Source: Sphingopyxis bauzanensis (GTDB lineage: Bacteria > Pseudomonadota > Alphaproteobacteria > Sphingomonadales > Sphingomonadaceae). Taken from it: a stretch of DNA of 64,000 nucleotides. The notes below the pieces were generated by a model. It was not told where the DNA came from, made no database searches, and worked only from the letters and a program-made list of their open reading frames with translations. The position numbers were made by a program, and so were the translations under genes. The DNA is taken from positions 1,095,303-1,159,302 of the forward strand of contig NZ_NISK01000001.1 of NCBI RefSeq assembly GCF_002205675.1, written 5' to 3'. Shown piece after piece: positions 4,201-48,444 of this stretch (positions are counted from its first letter, which is position 1; every line of letters starts with the position of its first letter).

Positions 4201-5559
4201 ATGGTCAAAAACGCCCCAAACGCAGCGCGCCGCGCCGCGACGCTCCTTCTGCCGCTGAGCCTGCTCGCCATGCCCGCCTTCGCCCAAACCGCGGTGAAAG
4301 AGGATTCGGTCATCCTCCAGCCCGACAAGGTCGCCGACGACGCCCCGGTGATCGCCGCACAAGTGACGTTGCCGAGCTGGACCGAAGAAGACGCCACCGC
4401 GCTGCTCAGTACGATCGAAAACATCGGCGCCGAAGGCCTGTTCGCCAAGGATTATAACCCCGATGCGCTCGCCGCGGCGATCCTTTCCAACGATCAGGTC
4501 GCGCTCGACAAACGCGCGACCGACACCTTCCTGCTGCTCGCGACGCATCTGCGCGACGGGCGCACGCCCAATGCGGCACGCAAACAATGGTTCATGGTCG
4601 ATAGCGACGCCGATGCCGAACCCTTGCTGCCGCTCCTCGAGACCGCGCTGAACGCCGGGTCGATCCGAGAAACGCTCGCCTCGCTCAACCCCATTCACCC
4701 CGACTTCGCGGTGCTCAAGGCCGCGCTCGCCAATGCCAAGGCGCCAGCCGACGCCAATGCCATCCGTGTCAACATGGAACGCTGGCGCTGGATGCCGCGC
4801 GCGCTCGGCGAGCGCTATGTCGTCAGCAACGTCCCCGAATATATGACCCGCGTCGTCCATGGCGGCACGATCATCGCGACCCACAAGGCCGTCGTCGGCA
4901 AAGCATCGACTGCAACGCCGCAGCTGAACCCGATGGCCACCGGCATCATCGTCAACCCGACCTGGACCCTACCGCGCAGCATCATTAACGAAGGCATCGG
5001 CGCGACGATTGCCCGCAACCCCGCCTCGGCGCGCGCGCAGGGCTATACCTGGACCGGCAGCGGCAAGACGCTGTCGGTGGTGCAAAAGGCGGGGCCAAAC
5101 AACGCGCTGGGCGTGATGAAGATGGAAATGCTCAACGAGCATGCGATCTACCTGCATGACACTCCGTCCAAGGGCGCGTTCAACGCTGCCGCCCGCGCAT
5201 TCAGCCACGGCTGCATCCGCACCGAACGCGCGCTGCATTTCTCGGGCCTGATGGCGGTCATGTTCGCGGGACGTAGCCCGGAAGAGTTCGGCGAAGCGAT
5301 CGCGAGCGGCAAGACCACCCGCTTCGGCTTCGACCAGCCTTTCCCTGTCTATGTTGCATATTGGACCGTCATCCCCGACGGCAAGGGCGGCACCAAAAAA
5401 CTCGCCGATCTCTATGGGCGCGATGCGCCGGTGGTGGCCAGCTTTGCCAAACCCGGTCGCCCGACCGCTACGATCATCACACCGGTCGCGCCGCAAGTGG
5501 TCCCGACGGTCCAGACCACAGCGCGCGTAACGACACCGGGGACCAGCGGAATTTATTGA
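4201..5559 (+). CDS. Exported L,D-transpeptidase (YkuD/YcbB type)
   Basis: A 452-residue exported L,D-transpeptidase, expected to make 3-3 peptidoglycan cross-links or attach proteins to the wall. Residues 1-29 form a signal peptide ending in Ala-Phe-Ala-Gln. A scaffold region with the HLRDGRT segment follows (about 85-125). The YkuD domain then starts near 210 and holds the catalytic signature HDTPSKGAFNAAARAFSHGC with the nucleophilic Cys in SHGCIR (about residue 338). Compared with E. coli YcbB (about 600 residues) it lacks an obvious peptidoglycan-binding domain. It is convergent with rpoC across a shared terminator. Confidence 0.9.
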   Translation: MVKNAPNAARRAATLLLPLSLLAMPAFAQTAVKEDSVILQPDKVADDAPVIAAQVTLPSWTEEDATALLSTIENIGAEGLFAKDYNPDALAAAILSNDQVALDKRATDTFLLLATHLRDGRTPNAARKQWFMVDSDADAEPLLPLLETALNAGSIRETLASLNPIHPDFAVLKAALANAKAPADANAIRVNMERWRWMPRALGERYVVSNVPEYMTRVVHGGTIIATHKAVVGKASTATPQLNPMATGIIVNPTWTLPRSIINEGIGATIARNPASARAQGYTWTGSGKTLSVVQKAGPNNALGVMKMEMLNEHAIYLHDTPSKGAFNAAARAFSHGCIRTERALHFSGLMAVMFAGRSPEEFGEAIASGKTTRFGFDQPFPVYVAYWTVIPDGKGGTKKLADLYGRDAPVVASFAKPGRPTATIITPVAPQVVPTVQTTARVTTPGTSGIY

Positions 5560-5669: not shown

Positions 5670-9956
<4,287 letters not shown>

Positions 9957-45536: not shown

Positions 45537-46510
45537 GAGATCGCCTCCTTCATATTGGATTGACCCGGCCAGGCCGGGGCTGCCGTCCGCACCGCGCTGC
45601 GCAGCGTGGCCGAGCGGGCGCGCGGGTTGCGCGTCTCTTCGGCCTTGCTCGGCCGCACTTTGCGCGCCGGCGTTTCGAAAGTGGCGGCCCGCGCCAGAGG
45701 AATCGGCGCGGGCCGGTGACGCGAACCAGCGGCATCGCTTCCGCTCCGTTCGCGCAGAAAATTCTTCACGATCCGGTCTTCGGTGCTGTGAAAGCTGACC
45801 ACCGCCAACCGGCCGCCCGGGCGGAGCAACCGTTCGGCGGCGGCGAGCCCCGCGACCAGCTCGTCGAGTTCAGAATTGATGTGAATGCGGATCGCCTGAA
45901 AGCTCTTCGTTGACGGATCCTTGGGCGCGCCGGGCGGGTGGCGCAGCGCCTTGCGGATCACCGTCGCCAGCTCGGCGGTACGTCTGAGCGGGCGCGCGGC
46001 AACGATCGCACGCGCGACGCGGCGCGACTGACGCTCATCACCATAATGGAATAGAACGTCGGCGATCTCGGTCTCTTCGGCGCGGTTCAGCCACTCGGCG
46101 GCGCTTTCGCCGTCCTGCGCCATCCGCATGTCGAGCGGGCCGTCCTTCTGAAACGAAAAGCCGCGCTCGCCCTGATCGAGCTGCATGGACGACACGCCGA
46201 TGTCGAAGGTGATGCCATCGACGGCGTCGATGCCGCGTTCGGCGAGCAGCCGGTCGATTTCACCAAAGCGGCCGTGGATCAGCGTCAGCTTGCCATCGGC
46301 TTCCTCGACCAGCACCTGCCCTTCGGCAATCGCATCGGGATCGCGGTCGCAGGCGACGACGTCGGCGCCCGCGGCGAGCATCGCGCGGGCATAGCCACCG
46401 GCACCAAAGGTCGCATCGACATGACGCTCACCAGGGGCGATGGCGAGCGCGGCGATCACTTCGTCGCGCAGGACGGGGTCGTGGCGGGGATCGCGGGAAA
46501 GGTCGCTCAT
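45530..46510 (-). CDS. rsmH: 16S rRNA (cytosine1402-N4)-methyltransferase
   Basis: Methylates C1402 of 16S rRNA (also called MraW). The 326-residue protein opens [14 protein letters not shown], followed by the SAM site [30 protein letters not shown], and [16 protein letters not shown]. The start at 46510 gives an ATGA overlap with mraZ and the normal family N-terminus; the open frame upstream lies inside mraZ. Confidence 0.97.
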
Positions 46511-47007
46511 TTGCGCCCCTTCCCTTTGGTCGCATCCCATGCCGCGGCGAGCCGCTGCAGCACCGGATCGGCGTCGGCGCATTCGGCGAGCGTCGGCAAC
46601 CACCAGATTTCAAACCGGCGACCCGACCCTACAAAGGCGGTCGCACCGACGTCGCCGACGCGGTCGCGGTGGGTGAAGCCGGGCAAGAAGCGCCCGCTGT
46701 CGTCGAGCGCATAGGCATCGGTGTAGCTGAAGCGCTTCTTAAACTCGGCATCCTCGTCGAAATCGAGGTTGCGCGAACGCGCAGTGTCGCGGTCGCGTTC
46801 GATCTCGCCATTCAGTCGGTCATATTGATCGTGGCCATAGGCGACGAGGCAGGGCAGCTTTTCGTGGAAGCCAACCCAAAGCACGCGCTGGCCGTCCGCC
46901 GTAAGGGGCACATTGTTGCGGAACTGAGAGGGGACGGCGATGCGTCCCTTGCCATCGATCGCAGCGAAGCTGGTTCCCGCATACTGGCCGGGCGTCACAA
47001 TCGCCAT
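46507..47007 (-). CDS. mraZ: Transcriptional regulator MraZ
   Basis: An AbrB-fold DNA-binding protein that in other bacteria represses its own dcw operon. At 166 residues it has two repeated half domains: [13 protein letters not shown] near the start and [18 protein letters not shown] in the second half. It is the first gene of the division/wall cluster. Its upstream DNA holds the kind of 10 bp-spaced GGG repeats MraZ is known to bind. Confidence 0.95.
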
Positions 47008-47054
47008 CGCTCTGCCCCCCGTATGCGCCTGCGGGCAATACTTTCCTGGCCCCA

Positions 47055-47167
47055 GAATCGCGTGATTCCAGTTGGTTCGGTTTCGGCGGAGATTGCCCCT
47101 CTCCGATTCCTAACTACCAACTATAGAGTAGGGTGAAAAGGGGAAATTTAGGGTGAAATAGGGAATC
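47055..47167. promoter_or_regulatory. Cluster of four GANTC sites upstream of mraZ
   Basis: GANTC motifs occur at 47055-47059 (GAATC), 47064-47068 (GATTC), 47105-47109 (GATTC) and 47163-47167 (GAATC). The first two form an inverted GAATC-GCGT-GATTC. GANTC is the target of the cell-cycle methyltransferase CcrM in alphaproteobacteria, where it often marks GcrA-controlled promoters. Four within 113 bp of a GC-rich genome is dense. Confidence 0.55.
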
Positions 47168-47170
47168 TAG
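47130..47170. promoter_or_regulatory. Putative MraZ operator: four GGG-led units at 10-bp spacing
   Basis: On the plus strand GGG occurs at 47131, 47141, 47151 and 47161, each preceded by A or G, in units GGGTGAAAAG, GGGAAATTTA, GGGTGAAATA and GGGAATCTAG. The exact 10 bp period matches the helical-repeat arrangement of known MraZ boxes (for example TGGGN-N5 in E. coli). It lies about 125-160 bp upstream of the mraZ start. The rest of 47008-47280 holds no gene. Confidence 0.65.
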
Positions 47171-47280
47171 CCCCTAATCGCCGCAAAATGACCAATTAGT
47201 CGGCCGAAATGCGGTCGGCACGGATCAGCGCAGCCGCAACACGCAGCTTCGTCAGGGCAAAATGGGGTCAAAAGGACGCC

Positions 47281-48444
47281 TCAGTTGGCGCGGGCGCGAA
47301 TCCACAGCGGTTGCAGCACCGCGACTCCGGCACCGGGCCACAGCTGCGCCGACAGCCATTCGATCGTGTCGGCCTGCCGCAGATGGTCTGCCCCCGGCAC
47401 GAGCGGCGACCAAAGGGGCGCAAACAACAGGTCGGCATCACCCACCAGCCACGCTTCGCCCGCTCCGATCCGGCATTGCGCGACGTGGCGGTCGGCGAAG
47501 CTGCGGCACGTCGGCGGCAGGCGCTCGAATGCCCCAGCGCTCGACAGGCGCAGCCGCGCGCCATCGACATCGACCACCGACGCCGCATTGTCGTCCGTCG
47601 GCGCCGCGCCCAGCGCCACCCCCCAATGATCGAGCAAAGGGGTGAGCAAGCTGGTCACCGGCGGATTGCGCGGATCGCCGAGCGGGTGAGTCGCGGGCCA
47701 GCCCGACAGCGCATCGGCCAGCACCACCGCCTTGCCGCCACGGCGGACAAAGGCGTCAATCGCCACCAGTTCCTGCGGCGCCAGCGCGCGCGGGTGCGCA
47801 ATGAGCAGCGTACCGCTCGGCGGCGGTACCGAATCGACCAGACTGTCGACCAGCGACACCGGCCCCATGGCCTCAAGCTGGGCCAGCGCCGGATCATCCT
47901 CTCCCCCATCGGCAATGATCACCGCAATATCGCCGCTACCCGACCAGCGCAGCGGCAGGCCCGTCAGCATCGTCATCGCCGGAGCGCGAGACGATGCCGT
48001 CGCGGGCCGATAGAGCGCAGCGAGCAGCGCATGCCCGCCCCCGAACCCGCCGATCACCAGCACAAGCGCAGCAAGCCAGGGCAGGAATGTCCTTCGCGGC
48101 CGCCATTGCACGACGTGATCGGCGACCAAAGCGGCCACAGCACCGACCATCAGCGTGAGTCCCACTTGTGACCACACCATCGATCCCGCCAGCACAGCCC
48201 CAAGCAGCGCTTGCGCCGTCGCCAGACATACTAGCGCGACGATGAACGTCCGCCGCCGCAGCGCAGTTCTCACTCCGCGATGCCAGAGCGCCAGCAGCAG
48301 CATCGGCAGCGCGATGATGGGTATTGCGAGCGCGGGATCGATCCGGCCAAGCCATGCTTGCCCGCCGCCGATCCACGTCAGCAGCAGCGTCAAGACAGCA
48401 ATCGAAACAGCGCGCACCAACAGGCGGCGCGACAATATCGTCAC
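47281..48444 (-). CDS. Membrane protein with a C-terminal DUF4350/GldG-like domain
   Basis: A 387-residue protein with four probable membrane spans in the first 150 residues (around 10-28, 36-50, 66-86, 120-140). A soluble domain (about 165-387) then has IAVIIADGGEDDPALAQLE, LLIAHPRALAPQELVAIDAFV and RRGGKAVVLADALSG. The soluble part resembles the Rossmann-like DUF4350/ABC-associated GldG domain, which has no known catalysis. It starts at GTG in a GTGA overlap with the gene before it. Function unknown. Confidence 0.6.
   Translation of the reverse strand: MTILSRRLLVRAVSIAVLTLLLTWIGGGQAWLGRIDPALAIPIIALPMLLLALWHRGVRTALRRRTFIVALVCLATAQALLGAVLAGSMVWSQVGLTLMVGAVAALVADHVVQWRPRRTFLPWLAALVLVIGGFGGGHALLAALYRPATASSRAPAMTMLTGLPLRWSGSGDIAVIIADGGEDDPALAQLEAMGPVSLVDSLVDSVPPPSGTLLIAHPRALAPQELVAIDAFVRRGGKAVVLADALSGWPATHPLGDPRNPPVTSLLTPLLDHWGVALGAAPTDDNAASVVDVDGARLRLSSAGAFERLPPTCRSFADRHVAQCRIGAGEAWLVGDADLLFAPLWSPLVPGADHLRQADTIEWLSAQLWPGAGVAVLQPLWIRARAN

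Follow-up and report, generated by a model that had tools for sequence, protein, structure and literature searches.

Division and cell-wall machinery is made by the dcw cluster. For the leader RNA of its mraZ gene, the nearest described case is UpsM of the Rhodobacteraceae, released by a Rho-independent terminator within a 268-nt mraZ leader (PMC5089854), and in the portions of the literature available to us it is the only comparable alphaproteobacterial mraZ leader that we found described. The available parts of that paper present long mraZ leaders with a terminator as special to the Rhodobacteraceae, and give mraZ 5' UTRs outside this family as typically at most 70 nt, with 170 nt in Sinorhizobium; the string "sphingo" is absent from its text. 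A more distant parallel is the ffh motif, an RNA candidate from comparative genomics that, in the excerpted account of PMC2704228, is a covarying leader fixed before one gene with an unknown effector. No sphingomonad mraZ leader was reported among the literature matches listed, which came mainly from non-subscription journals, nor in the available excerpts of PMC2704228 and PMC8632094.

The protein-binding side of mraZ control is described in more distant bacteria. In Burkholderia cenocepacia, mraZ carries four 7-nt repeats with 3-nt spacers, located downstream of the -10 element and overlapping the start point (PMC7761207, in part). The sequence of Escherichia coli MG1655, which we read directly, has GGG units with a 10-bp period directly upstream of mraZ, on the mraZ strand and no more than about 45 bp from the start codon.

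We studied the region upstream of mraZ in a 64,000-nucleotide stretch of the Sphingopyxis bauzanensis genome (hereafter, the window). The intergenic region (47008-47280) is flanked by mraZ, whose product was the sole MraZ match detected in a search of the source genome, and by a same-strand gene at 47281-48444. The first dcw neighbor downstream of mraZ is rsmH/mraW (Pfam MraW methylase); a short gene that matches no Pfam family occupies the ftsL position, and the ftsI position is taken by a gene for a penicillin-binding protein (Pfam). Since these genes stand in a row, the locus is a dcw cluster with mraZ as its first gene. An initial annotation had read the intergenic region as a promoter in which four GGG units and four GANTC sites tie the operon to MraZ autoregulation and, through CcrM methylation, to the cell cycle. 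On re-checking, the coordinates of the GGG units (47131, 47141, 47151, and 47161) and of the GANTC sites (47055, 47064, 47105, and 47163) were all correct.

We compared the window with 46 relatives of its MraZ, of which 41 are named Sphingopyxis and several are nearly identical; these 47 loci are referred to as Sphingopyxis-type. A comparison set comprised 110 other loci: four belong to different families within the order, one (L081) is placed in the same genus, and the remainder come from other genera of the family; L101 was excluded from the set of upstream regions because it had no start codon. Parsimony steps per column were counted on a tree built from coding DNA. The main result of this comparison is an uncatalogued, covarying mraZ leader predicted in the Sphingomonadaceae. 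We consider it probable that the region as a whole combines an MraZ-controlled promoter with a conserved structured 5' leader RNA of mraZ. Its features are as follows, with fractions referring to the Sphingopyxis-type loci.

47163-47167, no strand given: GANTC site S1, overlapping the fourth GGG by one base; 34/47 loci, 5 parsimony changes.
47131-47163, plus strand: likely MraZ-box array, four GGG units at 10-bp spacing (CCC on the mraZ strand); conserved in 47/47 loci.
47114-47121, minus strand: putative -10 element GTTGGTAG (GTTGATAG/C in most relatives), suggested by its conserved place between the boxes and the leader.
47105-47109, no strand given: GANTC site S2, at the inferred transcript start; 37/47 loci, 8 parsimony changes.
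47088-47104, minus strand: hairpin PA (GGAGA, loop GGGGCAA, TCTCC), the inferred 5' end of the leader.
47093-47098, minus strand: proposed P1 5' strand GGGCAA, within the PA loop, with its partner at 47033-47038.
47052-47071, minus strand: hairpin P3 (CTGGAATC, ACGC, GATTCTGG), a stem in nearly all of the 47 loci.
47064-47068, no strand given: GANTC site S3, the 5' arm of P3; 37/47 loci, N changing once.
47055-47059, no strand given: GANTC site S4, the 3' arm of P3; 38/47 loci, N never changing.
47041-47046, minus strand: GGAAAG, the counterpart, by alignment, of a conserved GGGGAAG 5' of the P1 3' strand in relatives.
47033-47038, minus strand: P1 3' strand TTGCCC, invariant except for its first base.
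47015-47020, minus strand: G run before the mraZ ATG, the likely ribosome-binding site judging by its sequence.
46507-47007, minus strand: mraZ (Pfam PF02381 MraZ, 36.6 bits against a cut-off of 23).

The GGG array is likely a set of MraZ-binding sites, as its conservation suggests. All 47 Sphingopyxis-type loci have four units with exact 10-bp spacing, so the pattern that the initial annotation proposed to look for in relatives is indeed present throughout. The 12 triplet positions are all invariant (0 parsimony steps), compared with 4.3 steps per column in the spacers between the boxes and 9.7 in the upstream flank. The pattern GGG(N7GGG)x3 occurs four times in the 4.26-Mb genome, with AT-rich spacers only at mraZ, the other three occurrences being G-rich runs; the control for this count was the reversed pattern, which supplies no background. 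The period extends beyond the genus: in the 110 other loci, CCC-CCC distances peak at 10, 20, and 30 (236, 166, and 110 pairs), with at most 15 pairs at any distance outside the peaks and their neighbors, and 51 of these loci contain at least three exact 10-bp units. Together with the same period before E. coli mraZ, this conservation supports the boxes, and hence the proposed autoregulation, well. The arrangement differs from both described cases. The array lies antisense to mraZ, 124-156 bp 5' of the ATG, which places it upstream of the presumed start point, whereas the E. coli boxes are on the sense strand close to the start codon and those of B. cenocepacia overlap the start point. Neither sense-strand boxes near the start codon nor boxes over the inferred start point were found at this locus; strand and place are traits of these two cases, not part of the definition of the class. 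The flipped, upstream array offers a chance to test if MraZ can repress irrespective of side and strand.

Beyond the boxes, the mraZ leader of many other genera opens with a sequence resembling CATCGGACA, which pairs with one resembling TGTCCG roughly 80 nt downstream. This helix, P1, encloses two hairpins, P2 and P3, and the conserved GGGGAAG precedes its 3' strand. To quantify the pairing, we aligned 34 leaders (alignment A1) and scored a hand-made three-helix structure on them. They were chosen out of 111 for a recognizable 5' motif: 45 leaders had a clear one, and 11 of these were omitted before counting for doubtful trimming or length. In this alignment, 83.1% of the cells were paired, compared with 39-49% when the structure was slid and 72.3% after shuffling. 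Cells with changes on both sides of a pair numbered 82, against 28.1 in shuffles and a maximum of 41 in slid structures, and no shuffle reached the cell counts. Likewise, the covariation score was 0.400 against a slid maximum of 0.171, and again no shuffle attained it. Counting the pairs that show at least one both-side change (17/21) did not discriminate, as a slide of +1 gave 18 and 4 of 500 shuffles reached 17. P1 is the weakest helix when taken alone: its 12 both-side cells exceeded every shuffle (mean 4.3), but a +1 slide gave 13. Of its cells, 81.4% were paired, versus 25-47% slid and 78.3% shuffled, so that the weaker case for P1 comes from its paired fraction relative to slides and from the covariation score. 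An unanchored duplex test of the leader ends pointed weakly in the expected direction, with 27 and 4 of 2000 permutations for 45 and 61 leaders (median rank 0.39 and 0.37). A possible built-in switch, in which the 5' strand of P1 forms an alternative local hairpin, was rejected in the relatives, since 61.8% of cells were paired versus 61.7% after shuffling.

A covariance model, built without Sphingopyxis sequences, matched 58 of 149 family genomes (E 0.01), 56 of them once only; the other 91, including the window's own genome, gave no match at this threshold. In all 58, the leader lies directly before mraZ, as determined by coordinates in 39 genomes (34-86 nt before the mraZ match) and by tblastn in 19. 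This position is partly by construction for 33 of the 58, whose training leaders were taken there, while 25 supplied no training sequence. The two genomes with a second match away from mraZ were G057 (E 0.0024) and G008 (E 0.0086). In 19 genomes outside the model's training, in an alignment fitted to the structure with sequences selected by score, 89.8% of cells were paired versus 37-51% slid, and 65 both-side cells were counted versus 19.4 in shuffles (0/500). In our searches, the element was almost confined to the family. A class-wide search matched 1 of 190 genomes, which belongs to the same family, and an order-wide search matched 12 of 118, 11 of them in the family; the match outside it (G138, E 0.0022) was on a contig other than that of its mraZ. 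Within the window, a weak match at 4514-4605 on the minus strand (E 0.018), away from mraZ, is probably due to chance. Rfam 15 gave no match in window positions 46900-47400 at E up to 5, and in seven other loci only four matches, all far below the gathering score. Covarying helices before the same gene in diverged sequences are the mark of a structured cis-regulatory RNA motif, and the leader appears to be one by this measure, with a putative regulatory effect. It resembles the ffh motif in this respect, and differs from it in preceding mraZ, in its near-confinement to one family, and in having no Rfam match. A covarying leader before mraZ in 58/58 matched family genomes would give a direct handle on division-protein levels in sphingomonads.

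Within Sphingopyxis, the sequence is too conserved for covariation to speak on every helix. In PA, 16 of 17 positions show no change on the tree and every pair is formed; the hairpin with its loop, like the P1 3' strand, is nearly invariant, in comparison to 9.7 steps per column upstream. Five of the six P1 pairs are also invariant, and the sixth is AU in 31 loci, UA in two, UG in one, and mismatched in 12, with both-side changes in three loci (Fisher p 0.028, relatedness not corrected for). Because PA and most P1 pairs are invariant, both are unproven by covariation in this genus. The near-invariance of PA and TTGCCC does fit a loop-tail pairing of GGGCAA with TTGCCC, which makes P1 likely in Sphingopyxis as well. 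Counting only pairs named beforehand, the Sphingopyxis structure had 17 both-side cells versus 4.2 in shuffles, none of 500 shuffles reached 17, and the slid maximum was 9. The folding energy of the window's leader is ordinary (z -1.0), and a scan of 46990-47290 found no match to the sigma-70 consensus.

Several observations connect this variant with the leader of the other genera. When the covariance model was applied to the 46 Sphingopyxis-type relatives, its six best matches all fell at the mraZ leader (E 0.003-0.037), and at E up to 10 it matched there in 19 of the 46. Weaker matches recurred near 6320-6480 in eight Sphingopyxis loci, inside a long open frame in L018, and on the other strand inside mraZ in five. 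In the model alignment, P3 coincides with the GANTC hairpin and GGGGAAG lines up with its counterpart, while P2 is poorly retained; the window's own leader reached only 4.8 bits with filters off, which is no match. Conversely, a model built from Sphingopyxis (R2) gave eight weak matches among 98 other loci at E up to 1 (best 0.069), and the five of these that lie at an mraZ leader by manual reading are suggestive. On this basis, we infer a single leader element common to Sphingopyxis and its relatives. The Sphingopyxis leader shares with UpsM the character of a long structured mraZ leader in the Alphaproteobacteria, but is about 100 nt rather than 268 nt long, has other helices, and lacks a terminator-like site.

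We propose the following model for the region. MraZ would bind the four GGG units just 5' of the start point and repress its own operon, as box conservation suggests, and transcription would begin with the leader of about 100 nt. In the relatives, the predicted core of this leader is P1, which joins the 5' end to a stretch about 80 nt downstream, with P2 and P3 enclosed. The Sphingopyxis variant seems to have P2 reduced or lost, P3 would be the GAATC/GATTC hairpin, and the 5' strand of P1 seemingly sits within the loop of the extra, almost invariant hairpin PA. By holding the 5' end of the transcript closed, the leader could add a further, post-transcriptional layer of control over mraZ and its operon, to judge by its structure and position. 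It might act after transcription start on mRNA stability or on translation, perhaps by docking a protein, an RNA, or a ligand. More speculatively, and in our estimate doubtful, the Sphingomonadaceae leader could represent a novel regulatory RNA class that responds to a signal from the cell wall or the cell cycle and sets division-cluster expression in series with MraZ repression, with the PA-loop pseudoknot of Sphingopyxis as the switching element. Candidate signals under this speculation would be a metabolite, a protein such as a dcw product, or a small RNA.

A small RNA could also enter differently. The leader may be chiefly the target of a trans-acting small RNA with C-rich loops, which would bind the loop GGGGCAA and GGGGAAG, or it may be the source of such an RNA. 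The invariance of the G-rich PA loop agrees with this idea, and there are precedents for both roles: the Caulobacter mraZ mRNA is named as a putative target of the ncRNA CcnA, and a GGGG motif is found in many of the CcnA targets (PMC8959179, in part), and the Rhodobacteraceae produce the small RNA UpsM from the mraZ leader (PMC5089854, in part). CcnA is thus a possible model for a partner RNA of the leader. However, a simple target site would not need covarying helices, and our scan of 46990-47290 for terminator-like sites found none, unlike in UpsM. We therefore regard this explanation as possible but rather unlikely.

GANTC is generally depleted in the window, as 78 sites were observed where shuffles led us to expect 313. 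Against this background, the four sites in the 273 bp of 47008-47280 amount to 14.7/kb, compared with 1.2/kb in coding DNA and 2.9/kb in 131 promoter-type intergenic regions (464 kb sampled, consisting of the window and 20 stretches of 20 kb, with genes from a simple custom caller). The density thus exceeds that of other intergenic regions, the comparison on which the initial annotation had staked its methylation reading. The Poisson probability of at least four sites in the region is about 0.009, to be read with the caveat that two of them make up a single hairpin and therefore depend on each other; only one other of the 131 regions has at least four sites within 113 bp. In the 180 bp upstream of mraZ, the 47 Sphingopyxis-type loci average 3.74 GANTC versus 0.89 after shuffling, while the 110 other loci average 0.61 versus 0.73. 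The enrichment is real and limited to the Sphingopyxis-type loci. GANTC-dense intergenic regions with three to six sites also occur elsewhere in the same genome (L169 5073-5649, L178 4468-4641, L179 6143-6490, and L182 16867-17422), and are candidates for CcrM/GcrA control or for comparable inverted repeats.

The sites at 47055 and 47064 do form an inverted pair, as had been noted. A hairpin scan found a stem in each of the 47 loci, with a mean of eight pairs. Both GANTC of the pair are present in 33 loci, and at least one is lost in 14 by hand count (the aligned count gives 15, because L028 is misaligned and actually has both). The stem is retained with at most one mismatch in 12 of these 14, through G-U pairs or paired changes such as GAAATC/GATTTC. 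Of the exceptional loci, L031 keeps P3 with a bulge by manual reading, the scan having scored a different one, and L030 is arranged differently. Both-side changes were seen in four of the eight P3 pairs. The middle base N of S3 and S4 is almost invariant (one and zero steps), as would be expected if the two N positions pair with each other; selection for GANTC alone should let N drift. Since the stem is mostly kept where GANTC is lost and N is fixed, the inverted pair is better read as an RNA stem than as a methylation target. In the overall reading that we consider probable, the GANTC pair in P3 arises as a side effect of the stem. Because paired GANTC sites can belong to RNA stems, promoter GANTC counts can mislead methylation studies.

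The two remaining sites, S1 and S2, bear more directly on the possibility that methylation of all four GANTC times the operon as a CcrM/GcrA switch while also competing with MraZ for the fourth box. The genome encodes a CcrM-like protein (N6_N4_Mtase at 229 bits and RAMA at 69.5 bits in a single protein) and GcrA (85.5 bits to the GcrA family, a profile that also matches Sulfolobus among 14 controls). Several GANTC in a division-gene promoter with both regulators encoded is also the situation in the CcrM/GcrA-regulated promoters of the Caulobacterales. The roughly fourfold excess of GANTC over shuffles in the 47 loci speaks for such a switch, as does the free N of S2, which among the 37 loci that retain the site is 31 times A and 6 times G; at S1, N gave no clear difference. 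Of the 13 loci without S1, five have a GANTC near -120 and 11 have one near -78. A site near -120 occurs in seven loci (L031, L032, L035, L036, L037, L038, and L045), five without S1 and two with both; these sites adjoin the putative -10 element, those near -78, present in many loci, sit in the leader, and the loci represent one part of the genus. The -120 sites in S1-less loci hint at turnover. Yet the enrichment is absent from the 110 other loci, P3 accounts for S3 and S4, and all four sites occur together at aligned positions in just 20 of the 47 loci. S1 and S2 changed state five and eight times, respectively, and at 4.5 steps per column the fixed bases of these sites evolve about as fast as the box spacers (4.3). 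The overlap of the last GANTC with the fourth GGG is true of the window and of 34 of the 47 loci but missing from 13, and the fourth box is invariant even where the overlapping GANTC is gone, so competition between MraZ and methylation, if any, is not general to these loci. Compared with the Caulobacterales promoters, two of the four sites here are explained by an RNA stem, and the enrichment is restricted to Sphingopyxis-type loci. We consider the full switch unlikely, whereas S1 and S2 may be additional CcrM/GcrA sites in this genus. The initial interpretation is thus partly supported: its MraZ part stands, and its methylation part is weakened, with two sites being a stem and the others plausible but turning over.

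A translational switch in Sphingopyxis, in which TTGCCC alternates between two pairing partners, the PA loop and the G run of the ribosome-binding site, seems quite improbable. In 25 of the 47 predicted ensembles, GCCC did pair with the stretch preceding the start codon at P >0.5 (0.99 in the window), but when the rest of the sequence was shuffled the mean was still 0.40, so that the real value of 0.55 is only a modest excess. The pairing of GCCC with the ribosome site also shows uncompensated mismatches and no covariation, and the alternative pairing with the PA loop is beyond the reach of nested folding. Sequestration of the ribosome site as a specific feature is hence not specifically supported in silico. 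Finally, a further transcription factor might use the palindrome of PA and the inverted repeat of P3 as operators at the DNA level, in place of any RNA structure, but this is very unlikely: the inverted repeats do lie near the inferred start point and PA is near-invariant with its loop included, but the P3 arms covary around a fast loop (14 steps per column on average), and the relatives' helices differ in sequence yet covary, which is not expected of an operator.

Examining the MraZ proteins themselves revealed considerable divergence. Sphingopyxis MraZ is mostly just 26-39% identical to MraZ from other genera of the family, which is striking given the conserved operon; the box period is the same nonetheless. 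One genome (G136) has two MraZ homologues, and another (G171, locus L081) is placed in the same genus as the window, yet its MraZ is 32% identical and its upstream region is different.
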